Below are positions 6,900 to 55,937 of a DNA stretch of 64,000 nucleotides, piece after piece. Position 1 is the stretch's first letter. Each line of letters begins with the position of its first letter. Made by a program: the position numbers and the translations under genes. The notes under the pieces were generated by a model, which was not told the origin of the DNA, ran no database searches, and was given only the letters and a program-made list of their open reading frames with translations. Source of the stretch: Antarctobacter sediminis (GTDB lineage Bacteria; Pseudomonadota; Alphaproteobacteria; Rhodobacterales; Rhodobacteraceae); NCBI RefSeq assembly GCF_019218285.1, contig NZ_JAHUZG010000001.1, positions 248,001 through 312,000 of the forward strand, in the 5' to 3' direction.

Positions 6900-7001
6900 T
6901 TCGCTCTCCGTCCATTTGGGTTAGGTCAGATCGCACCGGGATTAACTTGCCAGCCCGGGCTTGCCAAGGGCAGGCGGGCTGGACCGACGGAGGAGAAAGA
7001 C

Positions 7002-7874: not shown

Positions 7875-7972
7875 TTTAGAAATGAGGGTTCACGCGCCTT
7901 GACCTGAGCCCCGCGCAGGTGTCGAATGTTGGCAATGGATTTTTCCGACGTTCGTTTTTGGTGACCCCTCGA

Positions 7973-10150
7973 ATGCCGTACAGGCCGAAGTCGAGCAAGC
8001 TACTGACACTGGGCACCGCCGCAGCGGTCTTGACCATTTTGGTGTCCAGCGCCGGTTTCTACAAAGGTTTCACGGATTCCTCCCGCCTGCGGAACACGGA
8101 ATTGCGTCTGTCGATCCTGTCGCAGGACCTGATGTCGACTATCGGATTCGACGGGATGATCCATGATTTCAAGAACTGCGTGCTGCGTGGCGCGGCGGAA
8201 CCTGATTATTGCGACGAAGCCGAGCGTGAGTCGCTGCGGGCGCTTGATATCCTTGACCGGATGGAGACGCTGACGGCCGAACACGGCCTGCGGCTGACGC
8301 TTGATCCGGTCCGCGCCTCGGCGCGTGATTACGGTGCGCGGATCGAACAGGTCCGGCAGGGCCATGCGGACGGTTTGTCCGTCGTCGAAGTCGACGAGTC
8401 GGTGCGCTATGACGACGGCCCGGCGGTCGACGCCCTGCAAGAGGCGCTGAGAGTGGCGACCCAAACGCTGAACAGCCGAGTCGACGCGCTGCAACGGGAC
8501 TATGTCCTGATGACCGCGCTGGCCTTGTTGTTCCCTCTGGCGCTGGTGATCTGGTTCGCATTCGCCGCCCGGCGCGAGTTCCGGTCCACCGTGGACCGGC
8601 AGGCGCAGCTTGACGCGGTCTTTGCCTCGTTGACCGGTGGCTTGATCGGGTTCGATCAGAGCGGCGAAATCGTCCTGATCAACCCCACCGCGCGCAGGTT
8701 GTTGCGTCTTGGCCAACAAGAGGTCCCCTTTCGCTGGCCGGCCCATGCGGAATTGCGCCCGCGCGACGAAAGCGAAGGGGATACGCCGCATGACATCGAC
8801 CCGGTGGAAATCGCGCTTTCGCCCGACGGGACCGAAGAACAGGTGCGTCGCCTGCGGATCAACGTAGGGCAGGAACCGGACCGTTACGTCAAGATCGGCA
8901 GCGCGCGCGTGGATTTGCCCAATGCCCGCCTCACGGCCTTGCTGTTCATACAGGACGTGACGCTGGAAGAGCGGAACAGGCAGGTGATCGAACGCGATAG
9001 CCGTTTGGATGCTCTGGGTCAGTTGTCTGGCGGGATTGCGCATGATTTCAATAACTTGCTGGCTACTCTTCTGTTTTCGATCGAACTGGCCCAGCAAGAA
9101 GAGATCTCGGACACGGCTTCGGGCCTGCTGGAACGGTCGAAATCCGCCATCTGGAGCGGGCAGAGCCTGACGGATCGCTTGTTGTCCTTTGCGCGACGTC
9201 AACCGGGGCGGGAACAATCCCGGCCCGTGCGCGAGGTCTTCAAGGACATCGAGGTGTTGGCCCGTCCTGCACTCAGCGGCGAAGTCACGCTGCGACTTGA
9301 TTGTGATGACCCGGACCTGATGGTGCATGCGGATCCGGGGCAACTGGAAAACGCCCTGTTGAACCTGGTCCTGAATGCCCGCGATGCAATCCGCGAAAAG
9401 GGCGAGGAAGGGTCGATTACCGTCACCGCACGCGGGGTCAACGGCGATGAAATCGGCTTTGCCAACGGGCAAGAGGGCAGCGGCAAGGATGCCCGTGTCC
9501 CGGCGCACCAACGCCGCGTTGAAATCGCCATCAGCGACGATGGCAAAGGTATGTCCGACGAAGTGCGCCGCCGTGCGGTGGATCCGTTCTTTACAACGCG
9601 CCGGGCGCGGGGCGGCACCGGGCTTGGGCTCGCCATGGTTTACGGTTTCGTGCAGCAGTCCAACGGCGACCTGCGCATCTATTCGATCCCGGGGCAGGGG
9701 ACCACAGTGCGTCTGACCTTGCCGCGCGGCCTGTCCGAAAACGCACCGGAACCTTCGGCGTCCAAGGGGGCCACCCTGCGCGGCAGCGCGGAACGCGTGT
9801 TGCTGGTCGAGGATGAACCGGACCTGATGGAGGTCATGCAGGGCGTGCTGGCCGGGCTGGGCTATGAGGTTCTGACCGCTCCCACCGGTCGCAAGGCATG
9901 GGACCTGATCGAGAACGGGTTGGAGTTCGACGTACTCTTGTCGGATGTGTTCATGCCCGGAGGTGTTTCCGGCCAGGAGCTTGCCGAACGTGTGGTTGAC
10001 CGGTTCCCGCGCAAACCTGTTGTTCTGATGTCGGGATATGCCTTGCGCCCCGAAAGTGACGGCAAAGGCCCCGATTTCCTGTTCGTTCAAAAGCCCTGCA
10101 AGCCCGAAGAGCTTGCCCGTACCCTGCGAACAGCCCTCGAAAAGGCCTGA
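7973..10150 (+). CDS. hybrid sensor histidine kinase with receiver domain
   Basis: This is a membrane-bound two-component sensor. With the ATG at 7973 it has 725 residues; an in-frame GTG at 7919 would add 18. Visible in order: a TM helix (about 10-30), a periplasmic region with two cysteines, a second TM (about 176-198), a PAS-like domain (GLIGFDQSGEIVLINPTARR), the H-box GGIAHDFNNLL (histidine about 357), the N-box NALLNLVLNARDAI, the G-boxes DDGKGMSD and GGTGLGLAMVYG, and a C-terminal receiver domain (VLLVEDEPD, phospho-acceptor in LLSDVFMPG). The layout resembles CckA/NtrB-type kinases. No cognate DNA-binding regulator lies next to it. Confidence 0.9.
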   Translation: MPYRPKSSKLLTLGTAAAVLTILVSSAGFYKGFTDSSRLRNTELRLSILSQDLMSTIGFDGMIHDFKNCVLRGAAEPDYCDEAERESLRALDILDRMETLTAEHGLRLTLDPVRASARDYGARIEQVRQGHADGLSVVEVDESVRYDDGPAVDALQEALRVATQTLNSRVDALQRDYVLMTALALLFPLALVIWFAFAARREFRSTVDRQAQLDAVFASLTGGLIGFDQSGEIVLINPTARRLLRLGQQEVPFRWPAHAELRPRDESEGDTPHDIDPVEIALSPDGTEEQVRRLRINVGQEPDRYVKIGSARVDLPNARLTALLFIQDVTLEERNRQVIERDSRLDALGQLSGGIAHDFNNLLATLLFSIELAQQEEISDTASGLLERSKSAIWSGQSLTDRLLSFARRQPGREQSRPVREVFKDIEVLARPALSGEVTLRLDCDDPDLMVHADPGQLENALLNLVLNARDAIREKGEEGSITVTARGVNGDEIGFANGQEGSGKDARVPAHQRRVEIAISDDGKGMSDEVRRRAVDPFFTTRRARGGTGLGLAMVYGFVQQSNGDLRIYSIPGQGTTVRLTLPRGLSENAPEPSASKGATLRGSAERVLLVEDEPDLMEVMQGVLAGLGYEVLTAPTGRKAWDLIENGLEFDVLLSDVFMPGGVSGQELAERVVDRFPRKPVVLMSGYALRPESDGKGPDFLFVQKPCKPEELARTLRTALEKA

Positions 10151-41774: not shown

Positions 41775-42245
41775 TCAGCAACGCGCGTAAATGCGGCCCC
41801 AGAACATCCGGTTGGGCATCGGGTCCGATGTGCCGGTTCTTTTCAGGTAGCGGCCGCCCAGAAGATAGGCCTCGGGTTCGCCAAGCGCCAGACACTCCCA
41901 GCGCTCGGATGCGCCGCTTTTCCATTGCACGTAATGCACCAGTTCATGCAGCAGGATCTCGCGCCACAGAGGATTGTCCAAAGGGCTGTCAAAAGCCTCG
42001 GCATGATCAATGAACTCAGGAGCCAGCAAATAGATGGTGCCGTTGGGACCGTCCTCGCGCGAAAACAACGCATTCAACCGGTCATCCACGCCGTCATCCG
42101 GAGCCAGATGTGCAACACCGCTGTAATATTCGCCGGTCAGTTCCTGCGGGCTCATGACACGCACGATCGGATGCGGCATGTGCTGTGTTTCGTATTCCGT
42201 CTGATCGCCAATCCAGGCGAGAAGTGCGTCAATCAGGATGTCCAC
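41775..42245 (-). CDS. putative zinc peptidase-like protein with HExxH motif (DUF6647-like)
   Basis: The 156-residue protein contains LLHELVHYVQW (HExxH about residues 97-101) and later GEPEAYLLGGRYL, where the glutamate could be the third zinc ligand, as in small metallopeptidases. I recall similar proteins as DUF6647, with moderate certainty. I chose GTG 42245 because AGGGAG lies 9 bases upstream; TTG 42251 is an alternative. It is divergent from the CadC-like gene and about 125 bases from it. Confidence 0.62.
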   Translation of the reverse strand: MDILIDALLAWIGDQTEYETQHMPHPIVRVMSPQELTGEYYSGVAHLAPDDGVDDRLNALFSREDGPNGTIYLLAPEFIDHAEAFDSPLDNPLWREILLHELVHYVQWKSGASERWECLALGEPEAYLLGGRYLKRTGTSDPMPNRMFWGRIYARC

Positions 42246-42370
42246 GACCAAAGTCTCCCTTGCCAGATGCGGGAATCTGGCGGGTGACGGCGGGAAAAGT
42301 CCTGAGAGGGTTCTGAAAGTTTTCTGAATCCGGCCCGGGTTCTGTTATTTTGGGCGCAATAGGAGGCCCT

Positions 42371-43990
42371 TTGCCTGAAATGTTTGCCGACCCACAGCGG
42401 CCCGCCCCGGTTTCGATGGCCAATGTCGACGATGGTTCCTTGCGCCCGAACGCGGCTGCGCTTTTGGCGTACCTGCGGACCCGTGATGGCGAAGTGGTCA
42501 GCAAGCAGAGCCTGATGGATGCCGTATGGCCGGATACCCATGTGACGGAAAACTCGTTGTATCAGGCGGTGTCTGAACTGCGGCGCGCGCTTGCCGATGT
42601 GCCGGGGGTGGAGCTGCAGACCGTGCCGCGCAGGGGCTATCGTCTGGTCAGCGACGCCAGTCCGGCATCGGTGCATGGCGGGCGCTGGCCGTCATGGGGG
42701 CCGCCCCTGCGCGCCTTGGTGGCGATGTCGGTGGCCGTGCTGCTGGTGGCTGCGCTGGTTGGGGCCGTCCGCTTTGTGTCGGCCAATGCGCAACCACGGG
42801 CCAGTCTGCCCAGCGTTGCCGTGCTGCCCTTCGAGGCCTCGGATCCCAAAGGCCGCTGGCAGTTGTTTGGTCAAAGCATGAGCGAAGAGGTGGCCGGGTC
42901 GCTGGCCGCGAATAAATGGCTGCGCGTTCACGCCGCCGACAAGGCCCACGAGGCGCGGTTCGTACTAAACGGCAGCCTGTTGACCCAAGGAGGGCAGTTG
43001 CATGTGAATGCGCGTCTGACCGACCGGACCAATGGGGCGCTGATCTGGGCCAAAAGCTGGCACGGGCTGGAAAGCGGCTATTTCGATCTTCAGGCGGCGG
43101 TGGCACATGAGGTGGCGTCCGAACTGGGCGGGCACTGGTCCGGCGCGGTGGTGCGTTTCGAGGCGGGGCAGGCGGTGCGCCGCCCGACCGATAGCCTTGA
43201 TGCCTACGAGCTTTTCCTTCTGGGCACCCGCGCCAAGCATCGCTTTACCCCCGAAAGCTTTGAGTCCGCGCGACGGATGCTGACCCGCGCCGTCGAAATC
43301 GACCCGGGGTTTGTCGAGGCGTGGACGACCTTGTCGGTGGTCCACAATCTGCGCGCCCTCGTTGAACCCGAGGTGGCGCAGTTGCAGCGCATCATGGCGC
43401 AACGGGCCAAGGCGATAGAGGCCGCGGTTGCGCTGGCCCCGGAGGATCCGACCGTCCTGATGGAACAAGGCTGGTTGTTGGCGCGACAGGGCGACCACGC
43501 GGCGACGGTGCGCGCAGTGCGTCGTGCGGCGGCGCTTGCGCCCGATAACCCGGACGTGTTGGCCTATGCGGCCCTGAACGGAAATCTGCGGGTCGATCTG
43601 GGCAAGGAAGGCGTGGATTGGATCAGTCGCGCCATGGCGCTGAACCCCGATCCGCCGCCTTGGTACCATATCGGCGAAGGGCTGGCCCGGTTCACCGCGC
43701 GGGATTGGCAGGGCAGCGTGGCCGCCTTTGCCAAGGCCCCCGACTACGTGACCCGGGACCTGTTCACAGCGGTTGCCCTTGCGCAGTCGGGACAGCGCGA
43801 TCAGGCGCAGGCCGTGGCCGATCGCCTTGTACGGACCTATCCCGCCTTTCGCACCAGCCACTACGTGTATCAAGAGGCGATGGACCTGTCGGTCAACGGC
43901 CGTCTGCTGATCGAGACGGCCGCCGACCTTGGCATTCCGCGGGGGGATCTGCTCAGGCGACCTGCCAGTGCAGGGGCATCATTGGATTAA
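42371..43990 (+). CDS. CadC-like membrane regulator: winged helix, TM segment, TPR region
   Basis: The first 95 residues form an OmpR-type winged helix ([41 protein letters not shown]). One TM helix (about 114-137) follows. The periplasmic part has a TolB-N-like segment ([31 protein letters not shown]) and then TPR-like repeats. This is the CadC/ToxR-type one-component layout seen with adenylate-cyclase-like TPR proteins. AGGAGG at 42361 lies 4 bases before TTG 42371 and 13 before ATG 42380, so either may be the start. The 3' end overlaps the pyrC 3' end by 38 bases, tail to tail. Confidence 0.85.
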
Positions 43991-44987
43991 AGACCGTCAC
44001 CGGCCCGTCGCCGGTATCGATCTTTTCCGGATAGCTGACCGGCGCGCCCTTGGTCAGTGTGACCGTGCTCTCGTTGGCGGGCAGGCGATAGAAGGCGGGA
44101 CCATTGAGCGAGGCAAAGGACTCCAGCCGGTCCAGTGCGTTTTCCTGTTCAAAGACCTCGGCGAGGATCGACAGCGTATTGGTTGCGGTGAAACACCCGG
44201 CACAGCCGCAGGCGTTTTCCTTGAGCGGGTCGATGTGCGGCGCGCTGTCGGTGCCCAGAAAGAACGATGCATCGCCCGAGGTCGCTGCCGCGCGCAGGGC
44301 CAGACGATGCTCTTCGCGCTTGGCGACGGGCAGGCAATAGTAGTGCGGCTTGATCCCGCCGACGAGGATCGCGTTGCGGTTGATGACAAGATGGTGCGTG
44401 GTGATCGTGGCACCCAGATCGTCGCCGCCCGCGCGGGCATAATCGACACCTTGCCGCGTGGTGATATGTTCCATGATGACGCGCAGGCCCGGTGTGGTGC
44501 GGCGCACCGGGTCCAGAACACGTTCGATAAAGACGGCCTCGCGGTCAAAGATGTCAATGTCCGCATCCACCACCTCGCCGTGCACGCAAAGCGGGATGCC
44601 GTTTTCCGCCATGGCTTCGAGCGTGCCGCGCACCTTGTCAAAGTCGCGCACGCCCGAGGCAGAATTGGTCGTGGCACCCGCGGGGTAGAGTTTCACCGCA
44701 GTGACGATGCCGTCCTTGTGGGCCTGCACCACATCCGCCGGATCGGTTTCCTCGGTCAGGTAAAGGGTCATCAGCGGTTTGAAATCTGCCCCTTCCGGCA
44801 GTGCCGCAAGGATACGGTCTCGGTAGGCGGCCGCCTGTGTCCCCGTCACGACGGGCGGCACGAGGTTGGGCATGATGATGGCGCGGCCGAAATGGCGGGC
44901 GCTTTCGGGGGCGATGCCCTGCAACATGGCGCCATCGCGCAGGTGCAGGTGCCAGTCGTCGGGGCGGCGGATGGTGATCTGTTCCAT
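43953..44987 (-). CDS. pyrC: dihydroorotase
   Basis: PyrC interconverts carbamoyl aspartate and dihydroorotate. The 344-residue protein is the class II, E. coli type, with the metal motif [10 protein letters not shown] (His13 and His15), the carboxylated-lysine region [15 protein letters not shown], the histidine segments CVHGEV and MEHITT, and the aspartate in LGTDSAPH. The C-terminal end overlaps the CadC-like gene on the other strand. Confidence 0.95.
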
Positions 44988-45029: not shown

Positions 45030-45962
45030 TCAGACCTCGTCGTCGGTGGCCTCGATCTGGGCCAGCCTGCGGCGAAACCGCGGGGCGTGCATCCGCCCCA
45101 CCACGTTCTGACACAGAACACGGGCCAGTTCGGTGCGGCCTTCGCTGTCGATCCGGTGCAGCAGGCGGCGCAGATAGGGCGGGTGATCCCGCCGCGCCCG
45201 CAGCATCGAAGCAAAGAGTTCGGGCGTCAGGCGGTCTTCGCCTGCGGCGGTCAGCAGACCGGGCAAAAGATCCAGCGCCCGGAAATCCGCTTGCAGGGCG
45301 CCGCCCATGAAAGGCGCGCGATAGCGCCGCACATTGGGTTTGGCAAACAGCGCCGAATGCATCGCGTCCAGCCGTTCGCGCGGATCGTATATGATCCATG
45401 CCTTTTCGGCGGCGTCGATCATTTCCGGCGCAAAGCCATAGCGCGAGGTAAAGTCGCGGCGGCGCTCTTCGACAAAGCGATCGTCCCATTCGGTTACACG
45501 CGGATCCAGCGTGGCCTGCGGTTGCAACATCAGCACCCGCGCGCCGGGCGCGGTCACCGAATAGGCACCGGCGGCATAGCCACAGGGACCAGCGCCATAG
45601 AATAGCACGGTTTCGAATTCGTCGAAAAAGCCGTCGTCCTGCAACTGGTCGAAAAAGGCATAGACGCGGTCGTCACGGAACCATGTGTCGCCATGGCTCA
45701 GCAGCGACAGCGAGGACCAGCCGTTCGCATTGACCATGTCAAAGCCGATGGGTGTCTTGGTTTCGGACAGCGCTTCGATCCCGGACATGGTTTCAAAACC
45801 GACGACCAGCGTGTCGCCTTCTTCGACAAAGATCGCCGCATGACTTTTGCCCATGGGTTCGGCATAGCCGTATTCCTCGCCGATCCGCCGAAGCGCGCCC
45901 AGCCATTCGCTGCGCGACAGCGTGCTGAGATCGGGGGCGAAAGTCCTTTTGTGCGTTTCCAT
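45030..45962 (-). CDS. alpha/beta-hydrolase-like protein of unknown function, no catalytic serine seen
   Basis: The 310-residue protein has a strand-turn-helix VLFYGAGPCGYAAGAYSV that resembles a nucleophile elbow (compare FYGSSMGGYAA) but with Gly at the serine position. Before it are FVEEGDTLVVGFE and GWSSLSLLSHGDTWFRD; after it ARVLMLQPQATLDP. I know no name for it. It follows the glycosyltransferase cluster on the same strand, with about 120 bases between, and could act on the same glycan or lipid product. Confidence 0.65.
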   Translation of the reverse strand: METHKRTFAPDLSTLSRSEWLGALRRIGEEYGYAEPMGKSHAAIFVEEGDTLVVGFETMSGIEALSETKTPIGFDMVNANGWSSLSLLSHGDTWFRDDRVYAFFDQLQDDGFFDEFETVLFYGAGPCGYAAGAYSVTAPGARVLMLQPQATLDPRVTEWDDRFVEERRRDFTSRYGFAPEMIDAAEKAWIIYDPRERLDAMHSALFAKPNVRRYRAPFMGGALQADFRALDLLPGLLTAAGEDRLTPELFASMLRARRDHPPYLRRLLHRIDSEGRTELARVLCQNVVGRMHAPRFRRRLAQIEATDDEV

Positions 45963-46085
45963 GACCGGTTGTCCTCGTACTCCGTGGAAATTGACACGGA
46001 TTTGAGACAAACCCTGCACGGTCTTTCCGGCAAGAATGTGGTGCCCGGGTGGCAATACCTTGCGCCAAGGACAGAGCCACAAGGC

Positions 46086-47132
46086 TCAGGCGTCATCCTG
46101 CTGGCGCGACCGCGTGGCGTGACCTGCAAGGAAACGCGCCGCATTGACCGGCACCGGGCGCGAAGGCGGGGTCATCAGGAGGCGTGCAAAAAGCGCCCGA
46201 TAGGGTTCCTGCGCCAGCAGTTCCTCAAAACGTGCCTTGCGCCACGCAACGGCCGCCGCGTGCAGTCGGGACAGTTCAGGATCTCGGGCCAGATCGGCAC
46301 GGTGGTCTGCCACGCCGGGCAGCAACAGGGCGCTGCGGTCGTCTTCGTCACACCAGTTGCGTTCGACCCAGTAATCCATCCCAAGTGCCTGATCGGAATG
46401 CACGGCCCGGCCCCGGTCGGCTTTCAGCACATAACTTTCCATCGCGCCAAGCGCGTAGTGGTTCAACTGAGCCAACCCATAGTTGGACCGGCCATAGGTC
46501 GAAAAGATGCGGCGGCTGCGGAATTGTTCGTCCAGCGCGCGGCCCTCGCTGTCGAACCATTTTGCGCGACCCAGCCGGGCCTTGTCCGGCGCGCGGGGGC
46601 GATGGACGCCCAGTTTCGCGTAGGTTCCGTCATTGCGATACAGCGTCTTGAACATGGCCGCGCGCCAAGGCCAGTGCATGACCACCGGCGCGGCGCTGGT
46701 GAATTGCCGTGTCACCGGTTTGTCGACGTAGCGCACGACGCCCGCGTTGCCGAACAGCCGCCAGGTCAGCGTGATCGCCGTGGCTTGGGGCAGGGCGGCG
46801 ACCAGCGCGGGCAGGGTTCGGTCGCCGGTGTGGACATTGACGAATTCGTCAATGTCCAGCGACAGCAACCAATCCGCTTCGCGCACGGCTTCGGCCTTGT
46901 CCGCGCGTTTCAGCCCGGTGAACTGGATGCCGCGTGCCTCGTAGGGGCCGTCGTTGCGAATATGCGTGACGGGCGCCACGTGAGCCAGCCGGTCCAACAT
47001 GGCATCGGTGCCATCCTGACAATCGTTCGACAGGGCCACCACATGGGTGACGCCGCAGGCAAGGTGATGCGCCAGCCAGTCCAGCAGGAAGGCGCCTTCG
47101 TTGCGCAGGCAGAGGACCGCTGTGATCTTCAC
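46086..47132 (-). CDS. glycosyltransferase family 2-like protein (DxDEF type)
   Basis: The 348-residue protein has ITAVLCLRNEGAFLLDWLAHH, NDCQDGTDAML and the metal-binding DIDEF (about residues 92-96), the pattern of Glyco_tranf_2_4-like transferases. The later part has ARLGRAKWF and QLNHYALGAMESYVLK, shared with its two paralogues in this cluster. There is no TM segment. The GTG at 47132 avoids overlap with the upstream gene; a longer start at 47168 is possible. The sugar and acceptor are unknown. Confidence 0.85.
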   Translation of the reverse strand: MKITAVLCLRNEGAFLLDWLAHHLACGVTHVVALSNDCQDGTDAMLDRLAHVAPVTHIRNDGPYEARGIQFTGLKRADKAEAVREADWLLSLDIDEFVNVHTGDRTLPALVAALPQATAITLTWRLFGNAGVVRYVDKPVTRQFTSAAPVVMHWPWRAAMFKTLYRNDGTYAKLGVHRPRAPDKARLGRAKWFDSEGRALDEQFRSRRIFSTYGRSNYGLAQLNHYALGAMESYVLKADRGRAVHSDQALGMDYWVERNWCDEDDRSALLLPGVADHRADLARDPELSRLHAAAVAWRKARFEELLAQEPYRALFARLLMTPPSRPVPVNAARFLAGHATRSRQQDDA

Positions 47133-47139
47133 GGCGGCG

Positions 47140-49497
47140 TCAGGTTTCCATATCCAGCGCCAGCGCATAGGCGACGCGTTCGGTTTCCGTCAGTTCCAGC
47201 GCCAGCGCCTGCCGGTACAGGTCTTCGAATTCGGGCATGCCGTGCAGTTCGGCCGCCTTGGCGCGGTGCCATTCCAGCGCGCGATGATGGGCGGCGCGCA
47301 GGATATCGTCGCGCATCAGCCGGTCATATTCGGCACGGACGCGGGGTATGTTGCGCTTGATCGTGATGTCGCGGTGCACAGACCAGTCCATGCGGATCCA
47401 GTAATTCAACCCGATATTGCGATCCACGTGCAGGGCGCGACCGCGCTGGCGCTTGATGAGAAAGCTCTCGGCGGACCGCAGCGCGTAGTGGTTCAACTGG
47501 ATCAGGTCATAGCCGATCGTCCGCTTGGAACTCCTCCAGCCGTTGCGGATGGCGGCTTCGGTCATGTCATGACCCGATCCGTTGACCCATTTGACCTTGT
47601 CCTCGAACCCTTCGGCCAGCTTGTTCGGCCGGTGGCACGAGATCTTTTCATAAGCGCCGATGTTGCGGAACATCGTCTTGAACCCCCAGACCGTGTGCGG
47701 TTTGGGGCAATACTTCGGGGCGCAGGTGTCGAATTGTTCGATTACGAAACGGTCCTGAAACCGGCGCACACCATTGTGCCCGAACAGCCGCCAAGTCATC
47801 GCCACGTTGGTGGCATCCGGCACCCGGTCGAAAACATCCGCCAGCGTGCCGTTGCCGCAGCGGATGTTGACGAATTCATCCACGTCGATATGGGCGATCC
47901 AGTCGGCCTGCCTGATGACGTCTTCTTGCAGCGCGGCGTCCAGCGCATGCTGTTGCGGGCTTTTGCCTTTCCAGCCGTTGTTGTCACGGTGATGGACGAT
48001 CCCCAGCGCGTCCAGACGATCAAGGATTTCGACCGTGCCATCGGAACAGTCATTGGTGTAGATCAGGAAATTGTCAAAGCCCACGGCCCGGTGATAGGCG
48101 ATCCACTCAAGGATATAAGGGCCTTCGTTCTTCATGCAGCCGACGATGACATTGCCCGTCGATCCCTGTGGCAACACGCGGCGCGGGGCCGGGGCAAAGG
48201 CGGCAGCAAGGTCTTCTTCGTTGACGCGGCCCAGCCGGTTGTGCGGCGCATAGGCGGATCCGTGCAGGCGCGCGAAGTTCTGCTTGGCCTGCGGGGGCAT
48301 GACCTCTTGGGCGGCGTCGGTCAGGGGGGGCGTTTCCGGTTCCGGCACCGAAGCACCGTGCAGATGCGCCAGTTCGGCGGCACGGGCAGCGCGTTCCTCC
48401 TTGTCGCCCTGCGCGATGCGCCAGCGGAACGCCATAAGGTACTGCGTGGCGCGATAGCCGCGCGTCGGGCAGGCCTCTTGCCAGTCACCGCAGATCGGGT
48501 CGGCCTCCATGTCGGCGGGATCCATGCCGGGATGGGCGGCGCAAAGATCCGCGATGTCCGCTTCGAACCGCATGGACAGTTCGGACAGGGCACCGGCAAG
48601 AATGGCTCCGCCGGGAACCTTGATCTCGCCGAGGAAACGTCGCCAAAGCGCGCGCGGCAAAAGAATATCCTGCCGGTCCAGCAGGCGCAGCACCGCATCG
48701 TTGAACAGCCTCGCGCGGGTCAGCCATGGCGCGGCGGGCAGACGCGGCAGATCCTCTGCCTCGGCCTTGCCGATCTGCGCCTTGATGCCAAAGGCCTCAC
48801 AAAGGTCGGTCGTTGCCTCCTCGGACCACAACCTGTCACGGTTGATCGAACGAAACTGTACCGAACCGGTGCCAAAGACCGCTTCCCATTCGTCTTGCAG
48901 CCTTTTGTAATCCAGCCAGAAGTTCGCGCCCTGCACCTCGGGGAACAGGCCCGCCAACGGGGCGGTGTCGGGCCATGTCTCCAGCGCGGCAGAGCGGAAA
49001 TCGGGGGCGTCCAGCAGGCCAAGTTCGAGGTCCAGCGCCCGGGCGCGGCCGTCCAGAACCTGTGCGCCATAACGCGCCACCAACGCCCGCGCCGGTTCGT
49101 CCAGCCAGGCAAGGATGCGAATGTCGGACGAGATCGGGGCCAGCATATCCCGCAGACGTTCCAGTTCGGTACGGTTCGACAGGGAAGTGCCCAGTTGATG
49201 CGCCGACAAGATCAGGCTGTGGGCACCTTCGCGCTCGGCCTCTTGCGCCAGTTGCCGGGTAACATCCTCGCGCAGCGCGGCCTGTTTCCCGGCCAGCATG
49301 AAACCACGGTTAAAACGCAGAACGTCGGGGCGGTCGGCGTCGGTGACGGCCATGAACAGCCGCGTGTGATTGCGGGTGCCGGGGCTGCGGGCATAGAGCA
49401 CGCCTTCATCTTTCAGGCGGCCCCGTTTGGCGTCAAGGATCCTTTGTATTCTGTCGCTGGACGGGCCGTCCGGCCCGATATGTAGATAGATCCGCAT
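47140..49497 (-). CDS. fusion: sulfotransferase-like N-terminus and DxDEF glycosyltransferase C-terminus
   Basis: The 785-residue protein has two parts. Residues 1 to about 250 begin RIYLHIGPDGPSSDRIQRI, which resembles a sulfotransferase PAPS loop (HIGxPKTGTTSIQ) that has lost its lysine-glycine-threonine core, followed by ILAWLDEPARALVARYG. Residues about 430-740 are a glycosyltransferase with VIVGCMKNEGPYILEWIAYHR, NDCSDGTVEIL, DVDEF (about 540) and QLNHYALRSAESFLIK. The start is ATG 49497 or GTG 49500, overlapping the sulfotransferase gene stop. It may bind a sulfated or nucleotide ligand through the N-terminal part. Confidence 0.82.
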   Translation of the reverse strand: MRIYLHIGPDGPSSDRIQRILDAKRGRLKDEGVLYARSPGTRNHTRLFMAVTDADRPDVLRFNRGFMLAGKQAALREDVTRQLAQEAEREGAHSLILSAHQLGTSLSNRTELERLRDMLAPISSDIRILAWLDEPARALVARYGAQVLDGRARALDLELGLLDAPDFRSAALETWPDTAPLAGLFPEVQGANFWLDYKRLQDEWEAVFGTGSVQFRSINRDRLWSEEATTDLCEAFGIKAQIGKAEAEDLPRLPAAPWLTRARLFNDAVLRLLDRQDILLPRALWRRFLGEIKVPGGAILAGALSELSMRFEADIADLCAAHPGMDPADMEADPICGDWQEACPTRGYRATQYLMAFRWRIAQGDKEERAARAAELAHLHGASVPEPETPPLTDAAQEVMPPQAKQNFARLHGSAYAPHNRLGRVNEEDLAAAFAPAPRRVLPQGSTGNVIVGCMKNEGPYILEWIAYHRAVGFDNFLIYTNDCSDGTVEILDRLDALGIVHHRDNNGWKGKSPQQHALDAALQEDVIRQADWIAHIDVDEFVNIRCGNGTLADVFDRVPDATNVAMTWRLFGHNGVRRFQDRFVIEQFDTCAPKYCPKPHTVWGFKTMFRNIGAYEKISCHRPNKLAEGFEDKVKWVNGSGHDMTEAAIRNGWRSSKRTIGYDLIQLNHYALRSAESFLIKRQRGRALHVDRNIGLNYWIRMDWSVHRDITIKRNIPRVRAEYDRLMRDDILRAAHHRALEWHRAKAAELHGMPEFEDLYRQALALELTETERVAYALALDMET

Positions 49498-50174
49498 CAC
49501 ACTGCCCCTCGTGCCGTTTCGGCCTTGTTATTCCTGCCTGTCCGCTTGTCGCGGGTGTTTTCGTTCAGCTTGCCCCACCAGGGCATGTCCATGTCCAGAT
49601 GCCGGGCCAGACGCTCGCGCGCGTCCTTGGCTGCCACCGGAAGTTCCAGATAGCGCGGATCCTCGCCAAAGAGGTCGCGCAGCATGTCGTAATGGCCTTC
49701 GATCCAGCGGATGCGCTGATCGTCATCGGCCCCATAGCCCGCAGGCAGGCCCGGGATTGGCCCGGTGGGCAGGCGGTCATTGCCAAGGTTGCCCCAGCGC
49801 CGCATGGATTCCGACGTCTCCGAAGGTGGCCGCCATGTGGCCACGAACAAGAGATCCGGCCGGGCAAGGCGCATCGCCTTGATCATCGCATAATCGCACT
49901 GAGGCCACATCGAAGCCGCGCCGTTCAACACGCTGATCTCTGTCAGCGCGTCGTATAGCCCGTCAAGATGGGCAAAGGGATCGCCGGTTTCGAAGTACCC
50001 ATTGTATAGCTGCCGGGCGATGTAGGTCCCGCCAAGTCCGGGGGTGCGGGTGTGAACGCGGCGGACCTTGTGATCTGCCGCCCGCCAGCCAGCCTGTTCC
50101 AGCGCATGGGCCAGCGTCGTGGTGCCCGTCTTGGGCAGGCCGAGATTGACCAGCTTGACCTTGAGATCGCTCAT
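49497..50174 (-). CDS. sulfotransferase family protein
   Basis: The 225-residue protein has an intact 5'-phosphosulfate loop, LGLPKTGTTTLAHAL (residues 11-25), followed by a helix and the downstream FVATWRPPSETSESM, whose position fits the 3'-phosphate-binding region. It would transfer sulfate from PAPS to a glycan or lipid. Both ends overlap neighbours by 4 bases or so, so it is co-translated with the two glycosyltransferases. Confidence 0.82.
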   Translation of the reverse strand: MSDLKVKLVNLGLPKTGTTTLAHALEQAGWRAADHKVRRVHTRTPGLGGTYIARQLYNGYFETGDPFAHLDGLYDALTEISVLNGAASMWPQCDYAMIKAMRLARPDLLFVATWRPPSETSESMRRWGNLGNDRLPTGPIPGLPAGYGADDDQRIRWIEGHYDMLRDLFGEDPRYLELPVAAKDARERLARHLDMDMPWWGKLNENTRDKRTGRNNKAETARGAV

Positions 50175-51238
50175 AGCCCCAGCGCCTCCATCAACTCGGC
50201 CTCGCCCGGGGGCAGCGCGGGCAGCGCCGCAAGATGGGCATACATCTCGGCATAGGCGGGCTGGGTCATCAGGGCATCGCGTTTCTCGCGGTGCAGACGG
50301 ACACACTCACCATGCAGTCGCGCGATTTTCGGGTCCGATTTGATCCTGTCCAGCGCATCTTCCAACGCGGGCAAATAGCGGAGGATCGAGCGGTCCTCAT
50401 ATCCCGCATCATTGCGTTCGCGCCAGTAGGTGTCATCGAACACGCGGCCTTCGCGGTTGACGTCGCCCCGGTCGTTCTTGACGAGATAGCTGTCCAGCGA
50501 GCGCAGGGCATAATGGTTCAGCGTGGCGAACTGGCGGCTGCCGGCTGCGGGAAACTTGCGGATGCGGCGCGGGTTGTCCGCCGTCAGGAACTTTGGCGGC
50601 ACCCTGCGGCCTGAGGCATCGGTCCAGTCCGGTCGCCTGTCCTCGGGCAGGGACTTGCGAAAGAAGGGCCGATGCGCGCCAAAATATTGCAGCGGGAAAT
50701 CGTGGCGGACGAGGCTTTTGACCTCGATCGAGGTTTCGGCACACCAGATGTCGGGATTATGCGAGCGCATGAACTGCGCGATCACCGGACGGTCGACGAA
50801 ATCCGCGACCCCGTCACTGGCGAAGAACTGAAAGTTGATCGAAATGGCCTGCGGGTCGCCACAGGCCGCGATCAGGGCCGGGATCGTATGGTCGCCCACG
50901 TGGACGTTCAGGAACTCATCCACATCGGCGATCCAGACCCAATCCGCCTGCCGCACCACCGGATGTTTCGCGGCGGCCTTCAGCGCTTCCATCTGGTAAT
51001 TGCGGCCCTCCGCCGGGTTGGGGAGATGCACAACATTGCCGATGTCCGGGTGCGGGCTGGCCGCCAGCGCATCCAGCAAGCGATCCGTGCCATCGGTGCA
51101 ATCGTTGGAATAAAACAGGAAATCGGTGACACCCAGTAGGCAATGAAAAGCCATCCACTCCAACAGGAATGGTCCTTCGTTCTTGACGCAGGTCACAGCG
51201 GTGATGCGCCGCGTGGCGCCCGCTTTGATGTCAGCCAT
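50171..51238 (-). CDS. glycosyltransferase family 2-like protein (DxDEF type), first gene of cluster
   Basis: The 355-residue protein has ITAVTCVKNEGPFLLEWMAFH, NDCTDGTDRLLDAL and DVDEF (about residue 107), then TLNHYALRSLDSYLVKNDRG. It is a paralogue of the transferases at 46086 and in the C-terminal half of 47140. I chose the ATG giving MADIKAGATRR, which leaves about 170 bases for a promoter shared with the divergent moxR gene. It is the head of the cluster. Confidence 0.86.
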   Translation of the reverse strand: MADIKAGATRRITAVTCVKNEGPFLLEWMAFHCLLGVTDFLFYSNDCTDGTDRLLDALAASPHPDIGNVVHLPNPAEGRNYQMEALKAAAKHPVVRQADWVWIADVDEFLNVHVGDHTIPALIAACGDPQAISINFQFFASDGVADFVDRPVIAQFMRSHNPDIWCAETSIEVKSLVRHDFPLQYFGAHRPFFRKSLPEDRRPDWTDASGRRVPPKFLTADNPRRIRKFPAAGSRQFATLNHYALRSLDSYLVKNDRGDVNREGRVFDDTYWRERNDAGYEDRSILRYLPALEDALDRIKSDPKIARLHGECVRLHREKRDALMTQPAYAEMYAHLAALPALPPGEAELMEALGL

Positions 51239-51406
51239 GTCTGCTCGTCTGCCTGATCTCCGGGTTTGCCCCGGTTTTATACCGCGAATCATGACATTCC
51301 GTGAGCAACCCGTCAATCCATGCCAAGGTCAAGAGCCCGGGGGCGTGACTTCCGTCCTATTGACGGCCCTCGCAGGGCTTGGGAAACCGGGGGCAGGAGG
51401 ACCGCC

Positions 51407-52315
51407 ATGACATTGCCTGCATCCATCGACGACGTTCAGGAAACGCTTGGGAACACGGGCTATGTCTGTGGCCGGGCGCTTGCCACCGTCGTGTTCCTGT
51501 CGCTGCGCCTTGGGCGGCCTCTGTTCCTCGAGGGGGAGGCCGGCGTCGGCAAGACCGAGATCGCCAAGGCGCTGGCCAAGGCGCTGGGGCGGCGTTTGAT
51601 CCGGCTGCAATGTTACGAGGGGCTGGATGCCTCCAGCGCGGTCTACGAATGGAACTTTCCGGCGCAGATGATCGCCATTCGCACTGCCGAGGCACAGGGC
51701 AGCGCCGACCGGGACGTTCTGAACCGCGAACTGTTCGGGCCGGACTACCTGATCGAACGTCCGCTGTTGCAGGCCATGCGACCGGATGAGAACGGCGCGC
51801 CCATCCTGCTGATCGACGAACTGGACCGCACCGATGAACCTTTCGAGGCCTTCCTGCTGGAGGCGCTGAGCGACTTTCAGGTGACGATCCCCGAAATCGG
51901 CACCATCCAGGCGCCCGAGCCGCCGATCGTGATCCTGACCTCGAACCGCACGCGCGAGGTGCATGACGCGCTCAAACGGCGCTGCCTGTATCACTGGGTG
52001 GATTACCCGGACTTCGCGCGCGAGGTGGAAATCCTCAATGCCCGCGAACCGGGCGTGGCCGAAACCCTCAGCCGCGAGATCGTGGCCTTTGTTCAGTCGC
52101 TGCGCACCGAAGACATCTTCAAGAAACCGGGCGTGGCGGAAACCATCGACTGGGCCAAGTGCCTGCTGGCACTGGACGTGGTGGACCTGTCGCCCGAAGT
52201 GATCAGCGACACGCTGGGCGCGATCCTGAAATACCAGGACGACATCGCCAAGATCGAAGGCGGCGAAGCCAAGCGCATCCTCGACGAGGCCAAGGCCAGT
52301 ATCGAGGCGGCATGA
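51407..52315 (+). CDS. MoxR family AAA+ ATPase
   Basis: MoxR ATPases are chaperone-like and usually work with a VWA-domain partner to insert metals or assemble complexes. The 302-residue protein has Walker A EGEAGVGKTEIAKAL, the segment LIRLQCYEGLDASSAVYEW, Walker B ILLIDELDR and the sensor ILTSNRTREVHDALKRRCL. The ATG has a GGAGG site. It precedes the VWA gene at 52960, with two small possible ORFs between. Divergent from the glycosyltransferase cluster. Confidence 0.93.
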   Translation: MTLPASIDDVQETLGNTGYVCGRALATVVFLSLRLGRPLFLEGEAGVGKTEIAKALAKALGRRLIRLQCYEGLDASSAVYEWNFPAQMIAIRTAEAQGSADRDVLNRELFGPDYLIERPLLQAMRPDENGAPILLIDELDRTDEPFEAFLLEALSDFQVTIPEIGTIQAPEPPIVILTSNRTREVHDALKRRCLYHWVDYPDFAREVEILNAREPGVAETLSREIVAFVQSLRTEDIFKKPGVAETIDWAKCLLALDVVDLSPEVISDTLGAILKYQDDIAKIEGGEAKRILDEAKASIEAA

Positions 52316-52704
52316 ACCTGTTCCGCCCAACCGGCCTGAAGGACCTGCAAGTGGCCAGGGATGCCGGATGGAGCGCCCGGCCCGCGTACCGGCCGGACCG
52401 GTCCACTTTCTACCCGGTCACATCGCAACGCTCCGCTGAACAGATCGCGCTAGACCGAACCTCCGTTCTGCCAGCCTCGGATGGTCCGGGGCCTGTAACC
52501 CGCTTTGCAACTTCCATGGACTGCGCGGCTGGCCATCCGGGTCATCTGGCTGGCTCCAAGGAAGATGACGAACCGCGGGTCGCTGCGGATGCGCTTTCCG
52601 CGTCCAAAACCAAACCTGTCGAGCCGGTCTCGGTTGCGTTGCCGTACCGGTTCAAACAACCAACCTCCTCGAAAAAGCCCATGAAAAGGGTGGAACCGAG
52701 ATGA
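52312..52704 (+). CDS. small protein, N-terminus like ADP-ribosylation/crystallin J1 proteins, diverged C-terminus
   Basis: The 130-residue frame starts by ATGA overlap with moxR. Its first 60 residues (LFRPTGLKDLQVARDAGW, then TFYPVTSQRSAEQIALD and PGPVTRF) follow the pattern I remember for proteins annotated ADP-ribosylation/crystallin J1. The expected C-terminal half is missing, and the remaining 65 residues are low in structure. I checked the other frames and did not find the missing part, so it may be a decayed or reshaped gene. A chance frame cannot be excluded. Confidence 0.42.
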   Translation: MNLFRPTGLKDLQVARDAGWSARPAYRPDRSTFYPVTSQRSAEQIALDRTSVLPASDGPGPVTRFATSMDCAAGHPGHLAGSKEDDEPRVAADALSASKTKPVEPVSVALPYRFKQPTSSKKPMKRVEPR

Positions 52705-52967
52705 TCAGTGCCACCACACCCCCGGCGCGGCGGCGCAAGCTCCTCCGCCCCCACGGGCAGAACGTCCCGCGACGATACGGTTCCAAGGATCTGCCAGAGA
52801 TCGGATTATACAATTGCCAGAAGGATCAGGCGCGCCACGCCCTTGGGATCGGGTTTGACGCGGCCACGCAGGATGCGCTGATGTTTCTTCTTGGTCAAAA
52901 TACCTCTCCGGGGGTCCGGGGGTGGAAAACCCCCGGGGTTTGCCAAAGGCGAAATCAGGATGCCTGA
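52701..52967 (+). CDS. doubtful small ORF between moxR and the VWA gene
   Basis: An 88-residue frame starts at an ATG overlapping the previous stop (ATGA) and ends 8 bases inside the VWA gene. It has no family pattern, a basic start (ARRRKLLRPHG), and its last third is the dispersed repeat. The overlap chain is the only argument for translation; most likely it is not a protein gene. Confidence 0.2.
   Translation: MISATTPPARRRKLLRPHGQNVPRRYGSKDLPEIGLYNCQKDQARHALGIGFDAATQDALMFLLGQNTSPGVRGWKTPGVCQRRNQDA
52881..52942 (-). repeat. copy of the dispersed intergenic repeat plus hairpin
   Basis: On the minus strand GAGAGGTATTTTGACCAAGA followed by AGAAAC resembles the inner arms at 34373 and 34446. 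Next to it CCGGGGGT and ACCCCCGG (52917-52937) form a strong hairpin just before the VWA gene start, which could limit read-through from moxR. Confidence 0.55.
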
Positions 52968-54210
52968 ATACCTGCCGCTCGAAATTCCCGAAAACCCGCG
53001 CCTTGCGCAGAACATCATCCACTTCGCCAGGGCTTTGCGTCGCGCGGGCCTTCCGGTGGGACCGGGCCGGGTAATCGACGCGATCCGCGCGGTCGAGGCG
53101 GCAGGCTTTACCGAGCGGATGGATTTCTACTGGACGCTGCATGCCTGTTTCGTGAACCGGCCCGAACATAGGGTCGTCTTTGCGCAGATCTTTCGGCTGT
53201 ACTGGCGCGATCCACGTTTCCTTGAACAAATGATGTCGATGATGCTGCCCGCCATTCGCGGCGTGCAGGAGGAACGCAGCGCGGTGGCGGCCGAGAAACG
53301 CGCAGCTCAGGCCCTGCTGGGCGACCAGCTGCCTGAGATGCCCGAGGAGGAAGAGCAGGAAGAGGCCACCAAGGTCGAGGTGGATGCCTCGATGACCATG
53401 TCCGTCGAGGAAAAGCTGCGCAGCCTCGATTTCGAACAGATGTCGACCGAGGAAATCGCACAGGCCAAGCGGATGCTGGCGCGGTTGACCCTGCCGGTGA
53501 AACCGATCGAAAGCCGCCGTCTGATGGGCGCTCATCTTGGGCACCGCATGGATGCGCGCAAGACGATCCGAGATGCCCTGCGCAAGGGAGGTGAGATCCA
53601 GTCCATTGCGCGGGCGAAACGGCGGCCACGCTGGCCCAACCTGGTGGTCCTTTGCGACATTTCCGGCTCCATGAGCCAATACAGCCGCATGGTGCTGCAT
53701 TTCCTGCACGCTGTTGCGAATGAAAAGGGGCAGGGTTGGGCCAAGGTCCACGCCTTCACCTTTGGCACGCGGTTGACCAATATCACCCGCCATCTTGCCA
53801 CCCGTGACGTCGATGCGGCGCTGAAGGCCGCCGGGGCCGAGGCGCAGGATTGGGAGGGCGGCACGCGGATCGGCCAGTGCCTGCACGCCTTCAACCGGGA
53901 CTGGTCGCGCCGGGTCATGGGGCAGGGGGCTGTCGTTTTGCTGATCACTGACGGTCTGGACCGGGACGATGCGGGCGCGCTTGAGAAAGAGATGGAGCGC
54001 CTGCACCTGTCCTCGCGTCGGCTGATCTGGCTGAACCCCTTGTTGCGCTGGGACGGTTTTGCGCCCAAGGCCACGGGTATCCGCGCCATGCTGCCTCATG
54101 TGGACAGCTTTCGGGCAGGGCATTCCATCGCGTCGCTGGAGGATCTGGCCGAGACAATCTCGCGTCAGGATGATCTGGGCGAAAAGACCCGATTGATGCA
54201 GATGCTCTAG
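52960..54210 (+). CDS. CoxE-like VWA domain protein
   Basis: This is the likely partner of the MoxR ATPase. The 416-residue protein has an N-terminal helical part, an acidic segment (PEEEEQEEATKVE) and a C-terminal von Willebrand A domain with the MIDAS residues DISGSMS (about residue 233), the threonine in GGTRIG and the aspartate in LLITDGLD. CoxE-type proteins help insert metal cofactors, as in CO dehydrogenase; no such enzyme is nearby, so the client is unknown. I chose the ATG giving MPEYLPLEIPENP because the longer frame runs into the repeat. Confidence 0.92.
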   Translation: MPEYLPLEIPENPRLAQNIIHFARALRRAGLPVGPGRVIDAIRAVEAAGFTERMDFYWTLHACFVNRPEHRVVFAQIFRLYWRDPRFLEQMMSMMLPAIRGVQEERSAVAAEKRAAQALLGDQLPEMPEEEEQEEATKVEVDASMTMSVEEKLRSLDFEQMSTEEIAQAKRMLARLTLPVKPIESRRLMGAHLGHRMDARKTIRDALRKGGEIQSIARAKRRPRWPNLVVLCDISGSMSQYSRMVLHFLHAVANEKGQGWAKVHAFTFGTRLTNITRHLATRDVDAALKAAGAEAQDWEGGTRIGQCLHAFNRDWSRRVMGQGAVVLLITDGLDRDDAGALEKEMERLHLSSRRLIWLNPLLRWDGFAPKATGIRAMLPHVDSFRAGHSIASLEDLAETISRQDDLGEKTRLMQML

Positions 54211-54308: not shown

Positions 54309-55937
54309 ATGACCCCCATTCGCAATGCCACGGCGCTTGCCGGTGTACTGACCCTCGTGATCGGAGGCCCGGCGCTGGCGCAGGGCCAGAACGGCGATGC
54401 CGGTGCCGCTGCCAAGCTGCCTCAGCGACAGCTTGAGATGCTGAACGAACTTTGCAAGCTGGGCACAGAGGCACCGCAGGGTTTTGCCTGCGATGCCATT
54501 GCCGAGGCGCTTGCCGGTGGTCAGGCGGACAAGCCCGATCCCGAGGCACCCGAAGCAGATGCCAAGGTCGATCCGGCAGAGGCGCTGAAACCCAAGGACG
54601 CAACCGAAGACAAGGCAGAGGATCCGGCCCCCAAAACGGCCGACCCCGCGCCGGAAGTCGTCGACCCAGCACCCGAAACGGTCGAACCGGCCCCCGAGGC
54701 AGCAGACCCCGCACCCGAAGTTGCCGAACCTGATCCGGAACCGGCGGACCCCGCCCCGGAGGTTGTCGAACCGGCCCCGGAACCCGAGGCAGGCGACGCG
54801 CCAAGGGTTGCGGATACCCCGGACCCCGCAGCGGAAAGCGACGGTCCCGATCCGCAGGCGCAGATCGACTCGTTGCGCCGCCTGTTGGAAAGTCCGCCCG
54901 CTGCGGCTGCTGCCAGCCCACGGGATGGCGGAGAGCTTGTCGAGGAAAAGCTCGACGCAGAAGATGTGCGCCGGTCGAGCGAGGATTTCACAACCGGACT
55001 GGACGGCAAGGTGAAACCGGATGCCGAGGCCAAGAAGTCGGATGATGACGATGGCCTGTCGCCGCTGGCAAAGGCTGCGATTGTCGGTCTGGGCGCTGTC
55101 GCCCTGTCCGAGATCCTTGGTGAAAATGACAGGGTCGTATCGAACTCCGGCGACCGTGTGGTTGTTGAACAGGACGGGCAATTCCGCGTCCTGCGCAATG
55201 ACGACGTGCTGTTGCGCCGACCGGGGGCCGAGGTTGAAACCCGCAGCTTCGAGGACGGGTCGACGCGAACCCGTGTGACCTACGAAGACGGCACAGTGGT
55301 CACCACGATCCGCGCCGCTGATGGGCGCGTCCTGCGCCGCGTGCGCCAGTTGGCAGACGGGACAGAGGTTGTTCTGTTTGACGATACGCAATCCAGCCCG
55401 CGGGTAGAGATCAGCGAACTGCCAAGGGTCGAGACACGCAGCCGTGTCGATTACCGCGATACGGATGCGGATTCGCTTGCCCGGGCTTTGGCGGCCACAG
55501 GCGCGTCCGACATCAACCGCCGCTTTTCGCTGGCTCAGGTGCGCAACATCGATGCGGTGCGTCACCTCGTGCCCGAGATCACGGTGGACACGATCAACTT
55601 TGAAACCAATTCGGCGGCGATCCGTCCCGAAGAGGCCCGTGACCTTGCCGCGCTCGGTGATGCAATGCGAAGCGCCATCGCCCGCAATCCGGCAGAGGTA
55701 TTCCTGATCGAAGGGCACACGGACGCTGTGGGCAGCTTTGCCTACAACCTTGCCCTGTCGGACCGTCGCGCGGAATCCGTGGCACTGGCATTGACCGAGT
55801 ATTTCGACGTCCCGCCAGAGAACATGGTTCTGCAAGGCTATGGTGAAGGCGATCTGTTGATCCGTACAGATGACGCGGAACGCGCCAATCGCCGTGCCGC
55901 CGTGCGTCGCATCACGCCGTTGCTGACCGGGCAGTAA
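54309..55937 (+). CDS. OmpA-family outer-membrane/peptidoglycan-binding protein with acidic Pro-rich linker
   Basis: The 542-residue protein has a signal peptide (cleavage after GGPALAQ), a linker of short repeats such as DPAPEVVDPAPETVEPAPE (about residues 100-165, strongly acidic), a hydrophobic helix (PLAKAAIVGLGAVALSEIL), and a conserved block GDRVVVEQDGQFRVLRNDDV to DGTEVVLFDDT. The C-terminal OmpA domain has TVDTINFETNSAAIRPEEA, IEGHTDAVG, LSDRRAESVA and GYGEGDLL, which bind peptidoglycan. It is a paralogue of the next gene. A terminator separates the two. Confidence 0.92.
   Translation: MTPIRNATALAGVLTLVIGGPALAQGQNGDAGAAAKLPQRQLEMLNELCKLGTEAPQGFACDAIAEALAGGQADKPDPEAPEADAKVDPAEALKPKDATEDKAEDPAPKTADPAPEVVDPAPETVEPAPEAADPAPEVAEPDPEPADPAPEVVEPAPEPEAGDAPRVADTPDPAAESDGPDPQAQIDSLRRLLESPPAAAAASPRDGGELVEEKLDAEDVRRSSEDFTTGLDGKVKPDAEAKKSDDDDGLSPLAKAAIVGLGAVALSEILGENDRVVSNSGDRVVVEQDGQFRVLRNDDVLLRRPGAEVETRSFEDGSTRTRVTYEDGTVVTTIRAADGRVLRRVRQLADGTEVVLFDDTQSSPRVEISELPRVETRSRVDYRDTDADSLARALAATGASDINRRFSLAQVRNIDAVRHLVPEITVDTINFETNSAAIRPEEARDLAALGDAMRSAIARNPAEVFLIEGHTDAVGSFAYNLALSDRRAESVALALTEYFDVPPENMVLQGYGEGDLLIRTDDAERANRRAAVRRITPLLTGQ

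Follow-up and report, generated by a model that had tools for sequence, protein, structure and literature searches.

Marine bacteria build sulfated capsules with glycosyltransferases and with sulfotransferases that use 3′-phosphoadenosine 5′-phosphosulfate (PAPS), and it is already known that the two kinds of gene stand side by side in the capsule clusters of Vibrio sp. KMM 8419 (about 80 genes; PMC11641403) and Cobetia marina KMM 1449 (about 70 genes; PMC11766843), which also include ATP-binding cassette (ABC) transporter and PAPS synthesis genes. Here, a stretch of 64,000 nucleotides from Antarctobacter sediminis (assembly GCF_019218285.1, contig NZ_JAHUZG010000001.1, positions 248,001 to 312,000 of the forward strand; hereafter, the window) was analyzed. 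It carries a locus of five reverse-strand genes, named A, S, NB, C, and H, NB being a fusion of the domains N and B. Like the capsule clusters, the locus combines predicted glycosyltransferases with a predicted PAPS-dependent sulfotransferase, but it contains neither transporter nor PAPS synthesis genes, and its order is kept across genera. By sequence and structure model, N and H keep an enzyme fold and have lost its catalytic residues. What we rate as new is a small, fixed, core-genome locus for a putative sulfated glycan with two such pseudoenzyme modules, and, among the titles and abstract openings listed by searches of open-licence PubMed Central (PMC) text, none describes it.

The single components also have described relatives. 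Compared with GT92 enzymes such as the plant galactan synthase GalS1 (PDB 8d3t and 8d3z; PF01697 and PF13704), the glycosyltransferases of the locus come from a bacterium and are predicted to act in the cytoplasm, B has a dead sulfotransferase fold joined to it, and C lies under the GT92 cutoff. With PAPS sulfotransferases (PF17784; PDB 3rnl and 3-OST5, 7scd), S shares the P-loop Lys and the Arg/Ser pair and N shares the fold, whereas S has just 225 amino acids (aa) and lies on the borderline of what Pfam detects, and N lacks the PAPS site and forms one protein with a glycosyltransferase. Ser/His alpha/beta-hydrolases of Rhodobacteraceae resemble H at the profile level, whereas H at the pyrC locus has Gly in place of Ser and no catalytic His. 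GtfA/GtfB is a pair of a glycosyltransferase and a pseudo-glycosyltransferase. The present locus likewise combines putatively active glycosyltransferases with dead partners, but here the fused partner has a sulfotransferase fold and the second one a hydrolase fold.

Gene order and co-occurrence in Rhodobacteraceae

The complete order A-S-NB-C-H-pyrC was found in 62 of 80 named loci, which are the best 80 of the 273 NB relatives found, so that this set leans to close relatives. The remaining 18 lack at least one member (some are cut by contig ends), and none of the 80 is rearranged; pyrC directly follows H, in order, in 67. The sequence-only reading had called for a search for this order across Rhodobacteraceae genomes, and the order is kept across the family loci and is not confined to one strain. 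Within the window, A and S overlap by 4 bases (ATGA), S and NB overlap by 1 base (TGATG; 4 bases if NB starts at the GTG at 49500), the stop of NB and the start of C are 7 bases apart, and H follows C after 123 bases, so the tight coupling read for the four genes from 51238 to 46086 holds. Across the loci, the 4-base overlap of A and S recurs in 69 of 75 and an S-NB overlap of 1 or 4 bases in 71 of 76, while the median gaps around H are 120 bases to C and 52 bases to pyrC. The locus is under purifying selection.

A less biased count than that of the named loci came from 198 sampled family genomes. B and S occurred together in 53 genomes, B without S in 3, S without B in 1, and neither in 141 (Fisher P = 2.5e-43, with shared ancestry ignored). 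The 56 B genomes were defined by a near full-length NB match (48 genomes) or by a B match at E ≤ 3e-175 (8 genomes), and the 54 S genomes by an S match at E < 1e-50 (62 at E ≤ 0.001). H was present in 51 of the 56 B genomes. In some of these genomes S no longer adjoins NB but is retained, at a distance of about 53 kb in G010 and about 49 kb in G381. Among 240 genomes sampled from the class, 3 of them from the family, full-length NB occurred in 2 (A. sediminis itself and G190), partial matches to one NB domain occurred in 19 genomes of other families, and H matched the 3 family members and, marginally (E > 5e-4), 3 others. Together, the gene order across the 80 named loci and the association of B and S in 198 genomes confirm that the cluster is real and beyond chance.

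A sixth gene is common among the relatives. In 55 of 79 named loci, the interval from NB to C holds an open reading frame (ORF) of 200 aa or more (e.g., L051, 12363-13058), as counted by length in this gap; the one picked in L052 seems to be out of frame. The four that were compared with Pfam resemble methyltransferases, three of them scoring over the FkbM cutoff. All five congeners have such an ORF. The corresponding gap of the window (47132-47140) spans 7 bases, no methyltransferase remnant was found in the locus, and the genome holds only a 40% paralogue elsewhere. The A. sediminis strain thus appears to have lost the methyltransferase gene of most relatives.

Predicted catalytic and noncatalytic modules

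Judged by its motifs, S is a predicted PAPS-dependent sulfotransferase. The PAPS loop LPKTGTTTL noted earlier is intact, and both PAPS motifs, PK[ST]GT and R-x7-S, are kept in 77 of 77 S sequences, including that of the window. K15, R115, and S123 are invariant in 41 sequences, as are L13, P14, K15, G17, and T18 of the P-loop in alignment A3. Against the Sulfotransfer_4 model of Pfam (cutoff, 22.8), S scores 22.5, and its orthologues score 17.3 in Mameliella alba and 40.5 in Thalassovita aquimarina. Sequence searches of solved structures with S gave only weak matches (E of 0.17 and above).

The sequence-only reading pictured one sulfotransferase and three plain glycosyltransferases; this is not borne out, because NB contains a second, degenerate sulfotransferase domain. 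N is predicted to have the sulfotransferase fold, yet the P-loop Lys and the 3′-phosphate Arg of the PAPS site occur in 0 of 80 copies and the Ser in 2 of 80 (L086, in which N is split, was excluded), whereas the same residues are intact in 7 of 7 intact relatives. N has instead gained invariant basic residues. From sequence and model, N is therefore not classed as a sulfotransferase. The profile match of N to the HIGxxKTGST-type sulfotransferases (E = 2.7e-41) is inflated because the latter profile was cut from an alignment built jointly with N; independent support for this relationship comes from separate BLAST matches (2e-11 to 3e-5) and from the fold. That N is a copy of S was rejected, as profile comparison showed no similarity between them (E = 0.14).

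H is a similar case. The earlier label of a hydrolase-like protein is right for the predicted alpha/beta-hydrolase fold only, and H is not classed as a hydrolase: Gly occupies the nucleophile position in 74 of 74 locus copies, and the catalytic His is gone. A role as a standard esterase or acetyltransferase was likewise rejected because Ser and His are both lost. Among 105 family members, which repeat some genomes (L031 to L039 share genomes with the series from L051 on, and L133 comes from the window itself), 91 have Gly and no His, 14 have Ser and His, and none is mixed, while the catalytic Asp is kept in all 105. C127 is present in 82 of the 91 Gly copies and in 0 of the 14 Ser copies, the remaining 9 Gly copies having Ala or Gly. 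H had no match among Pfam and NCBIfam models at E ≤ 0.1 and no credible one among solved structures by sequence; a fold relative is in the Gap123 complex. Over most of its length, the H profile matches the Ser/His-intact relatives, which include plasmid copies in Thioclava, Loktanella, and Paracoccus, some of them fused to glycosyltransferases. N and H are each under purifying selection.

On a Thioclava plasmid (L150), two Ser/His-intact relatives of H (7922-8854 and 5977-6975) have a sulfatase-like gene and a gene for a formylglycine-generating enzyme as neighbors. The annotation of one of these relatives as a phosphoadenosine phosphosulfate reductase seems to be an error that could be put right. 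In L148, a large ORF (6945-9071) adjoining a fused glycosyltransferase and H protein contains a glycosyltransferase-like stretch (E = 3e-22) and an H-like stretch with the intact elbow GTSMGGYGA, and is possibly a further fusion.

The related transferases A, B, and C are of the GT-A type, and A, NB, and C each exceed the PF13704 cutoff (A, 73.5 bits; C, 77 bits). PF01697 (GT92; cutoff, 23 bits) gives 32.4 bits for A, 39.4 for NB, 42.0 for the B domain alone, and 15 for C, and it is matched by 15 of 15 B-type sequences at E ≤ 0.001; by these scores, A and B only are filed as GT92-like. Of the motifs said to be shared by the three, those of A (KNEGPFLLEW, NDCTDGT, DVDEF, and LNHYALRS) and B (KNEGPYILEW, NDCSDGT, DVDEF, and LNHYALRS) follow the described pattern, and those of C (RNEGAFLLDW, NDCQDGT, DIDEF, and LNHYALGA) are looser. 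The DxD metal site is kept in 78 of 79 orthologues of A (DVDEF), 79 of 79 of B, and 79 of 79 of C (D-x-D-E-[FY]). B is predicted to have the fold of a solved GT92 enzyme, its nearest fold being that of GalS1, and from this fold and the Pfam GT92 match galactose is the best guess for its donor sugar. By sequence, two solved structures matched B (E = 0.018 and 0.11) and were rejected as not credible relatives, and none matched NB at E ≤ 1.

In a tree of 44 glycosyltransferase domains, in which several long branches were flagged, A, B, and C form three separate clades. B joins its counterparts from a second lineage of loci with support of 90/98 (below the level starred by the tool), C joins its own second-lineage counterparts (100/99), and A groups on the C side (98/96). 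Since B and C each pair with second-lineage counterparts, the duplication that gave rise to them appears older than the split between the lineages. The earlier proposal that the three transferases arose by duplication thus stands as to their relatedness, but the duplications are old. None of eight second-type loci inspected showed an A gene. In the second lineage (L043 to L049; L131, 6786-9092), the partner fused to the B-type transferase is another, unrecognized N-terminal domain of about 400 aa, for which Pfam gave no match in three proteins scanned. By eye this domain resembled a dead glycosyltransferase, but its E value in profile comparison (0.059) was scarcely below that of the best of 20 column shuffles (0.071).

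Proposed glycan pathway and alternatives

The best explanation is, tentatively and at somewhat less than an even chance for the whole, that the locus is a core-genome feature of Rhodobacteraceae, mainly roseobacters, and encodes a cytoplasmic assembly line for a short, sulfated, often methylated envelope glycan built on a lipid, with pseudoenzyme roles for N and H. A, B, and C would add sugars one after another, and at least one of these is perhaps galactose, because A and B are GT92-like and the fold of B is nearest to GalS1. S would transfer sulfate from PAPS to the growing glycan. N may bind the acceptor, sulfated or otherwise anionic, and hold it for the fused domain B, which would couple sulfation and extension. 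H may serve the glycosyltransferases as a binding or scaffold partner, and an FkbM-type methyltransferase would decorate the chain in most relatives. The most likely acceptor would be an inner-leaflet lipid, e.g., lipid A-core, with which the pathway could do without a flippase or polymerase of its own, and this would explain their absence nearby. The part of this scheme that was proposed before, a coupled pathway that makes a glycan in the cytoplasm and sulfates it from PAPS, agrees with the DxD sites of three transferases, the PAPS motifs of S, the conserved order, and simple hydropathy, by which no locus protein has a signal peptide or membrane helix.

Several observations weigh against this explanation. 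The lipid A-core acceptor is drawn just from the lack of nearby flippase and polymerase genes, and the galactose assignment leans solely on the fold and the Pfam GT92 match. C is under the GT92 cutoff, a search of PDB sequences with the B profile found no GT92 chain, and the relative placement of the domains in the NB model is uncertain (predicted template modeling score, 0.61). The methyltransferase-type ORF is missing from 24 of 79 loci. Neither S nor H is indispensable, since S was not seen in 3 and H not in 5 of the 56 B genomes, some incomplete assemblies notwithstanding. PAPS supply says little, because adenosine 5′-phosphosulfate (APS) kinase is present in 184 of the 198 family genomes; co-occurrence with this kinase was accordingly discarded as an uninformative test of sulfation.

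The same biochemistry might instead be directed at a protein, such as a surface lipoprotein, pilin, or flagellin. We consider this unlikely, as no gene for a protein substrate is a constant companion of the locus and the OmpA-domain gene nearby is matched in only 17 of 80 loci. About equally unlikely is a locus that only decorates a capsule or exopolysaccharide whose polymerization and export depend on genes at other sites of the genome. Sulfated capsules are made by the same enzyme types in the marine bacteria named above, and the A. sediminis genome holds ten PF13704 matches, three of them in the locus, which would suit such a role. However, the published clusters are far larger than the five or six genes found here, and another strain of the species to which Vibrio KMM 8419 belongs has a completely different cluster (PMC11641403), though the Cobetia KMM 1449 cluster is found again in strains of three species (PMC11766843). 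The order of the present locus, in contrast, is fixed over many genera, among housekeeping genes.

A bolder version of the proposed assembly line, which we regard as speculative and rather improbable, makes N a checkpoint that, having lost PAPS binding and acquired its conserved basic residues, reads the sulfate added by S and hands only sulfated acceptors to the fused glycosyltransferase, while H scaffolds the complex. If true, roseobacters would share a family-wide sulfated envelope glycan whose length and sulfation are set by noncatalytic enzyme folds retained within the pathway. N and H might still be enzymes with nonstandard sites, for example N using another donor and H acting via Cys127. 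Purifying selection on both, the restriction of C127 to Gly copies of H, and the basic residues gained by N fit this idea, but the catalytic His of H is also gone, position 127 is itself variable, and the PAPS-site residues are almost uniformly absent from N, so that it seems quite improbable. It is very improbable that the genes share no pathway and adjoin merely through the stability of a housekeeping region, for although pyrC, pyrE, and dnaB nearby are conserved too and gaps set H apart from C and pyrC, the A-S and S-NB overlaps recur, S and B stay in the same genomes even when no longer adjacent, and H domains are fused to glycosyltransferases elsewhere.

Roseobacters are abundant marine bacteria, and a sulfated polysaccharide is reported from the roseobacter genus Poseidonocella. 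In many roseobacter genera the locus lies in the housekeeping part of the chromosome. If a sulfated glycan is made by such a fixed core locus and not by a variable capsule island, phages, algae, and grazers would meet it as a widespread surface trait. NB, in which a dead sulfotransferase fold is joined to a putatively live glycosyltransferase, and H, whose fold has lost Ser and His together, also offer two cases in which one can test whether enzyme folds have been put to new use as binding modules in glycan assembly.

Features and neighborhood of the locus

Coordinates of the locus genes, their domains and motifs, and pyrC in the window
Feature	Position	Strand	Description
Gene A	51238-50171	-	GT2_4/GT92-like glycosyltransferase (predicted), 355 aa
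Gene S	50174-49497	-	PAPS-dependent sulfotransferase (predicted), 225 aa
P-loop LPKTGTTTL of S, residues 13-21	50112-50138	-	Read from sequence
Gene NB	49497-47140	-	785-aa fusion of two domains (N and B)
N domain of NB, residues 1-440	48178-49497	-	Predicted sulfotransferase fold without PAPS-binding residues; fold match over 1-333
B domain of NB, residues 441-785	47140-48177	-	GT2_4/GT92-like glycosyltransferase (predicted), DVDEF intact
Gene C	47132-46086	-	GT2_4 glycosyltransferase (predicted), GTG start, 348 aa, DIDEF intact
Gene H	45962-45030	-	Predicted alpha/beta-hydrolase fold, catalytic Ser and His lost, ATG start, 310 aa
Former nucleophile elbow of H, FYGAGPCGYAA, residues 121-131	45570-45602	-	Gly125 at the Ser position of relatives (e.g., GTSMGGYAA)
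pyrC (dihydroorotase)	43953-44987	-	Usual downstream neighbor; TIGR00856, 407.5 bits, above cutoff

The genes typed between 35.3 and 55.9 kb of the window comprise an MlaF/MlaE-like lipid ABC pair (under the models' cutoffs), alr, dnaB, pyrE, a regulator with tetratricopeptide repeats (TPR), pyrC, the locus, a pair encoding a MoxR-type ATPase and a von Willebrand factor A (VWA) protein, and an OmpA-domain gene (54309-55937). No polymerase, flippase, or polysaccharide exporter was found among these typed neighbors, for which the earlier statement that none is near holds, the small ORFs and the rest of the window having been only partly typed and the rest of the genome not searched for exporters. 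The constant neighbors of the locus are pyrC, pyrE, dnaB, and the MoxR/VWA pair.

This pair (51320-54210, forward strand) is divergent from the locus and MadB/MadC-like, though below the cutoffs of those models; on the opposite strand beside the locus, the MoxR gene occurs in 75 and the VWA gene in 69 of 80 loci. A role in antiphage defense was rejected: with PADLOC, the MoxR-type neighbor had low-scoring AAA-type matches and the VWA protein, NB, S, and H had no match at all. A role as a phage receptor was also set aside, since a screen with Phaeobacter phage MD18 implicates the type IV pilus and the accessible part of its report names no gene of the kind found in the locus (PMC7643831).

Between pyrC and pyrE, the winged-helix regulator with TPR lies on the opposite strand (42350-43990, forward strand) and is not among the neighbors common to at least 8 of the 80 loci. 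A small ORF in the same interval (41775-42251, reverse strand) has a weak Tox-MPTase3 match of 17.1 bits against a cutoff of 25.

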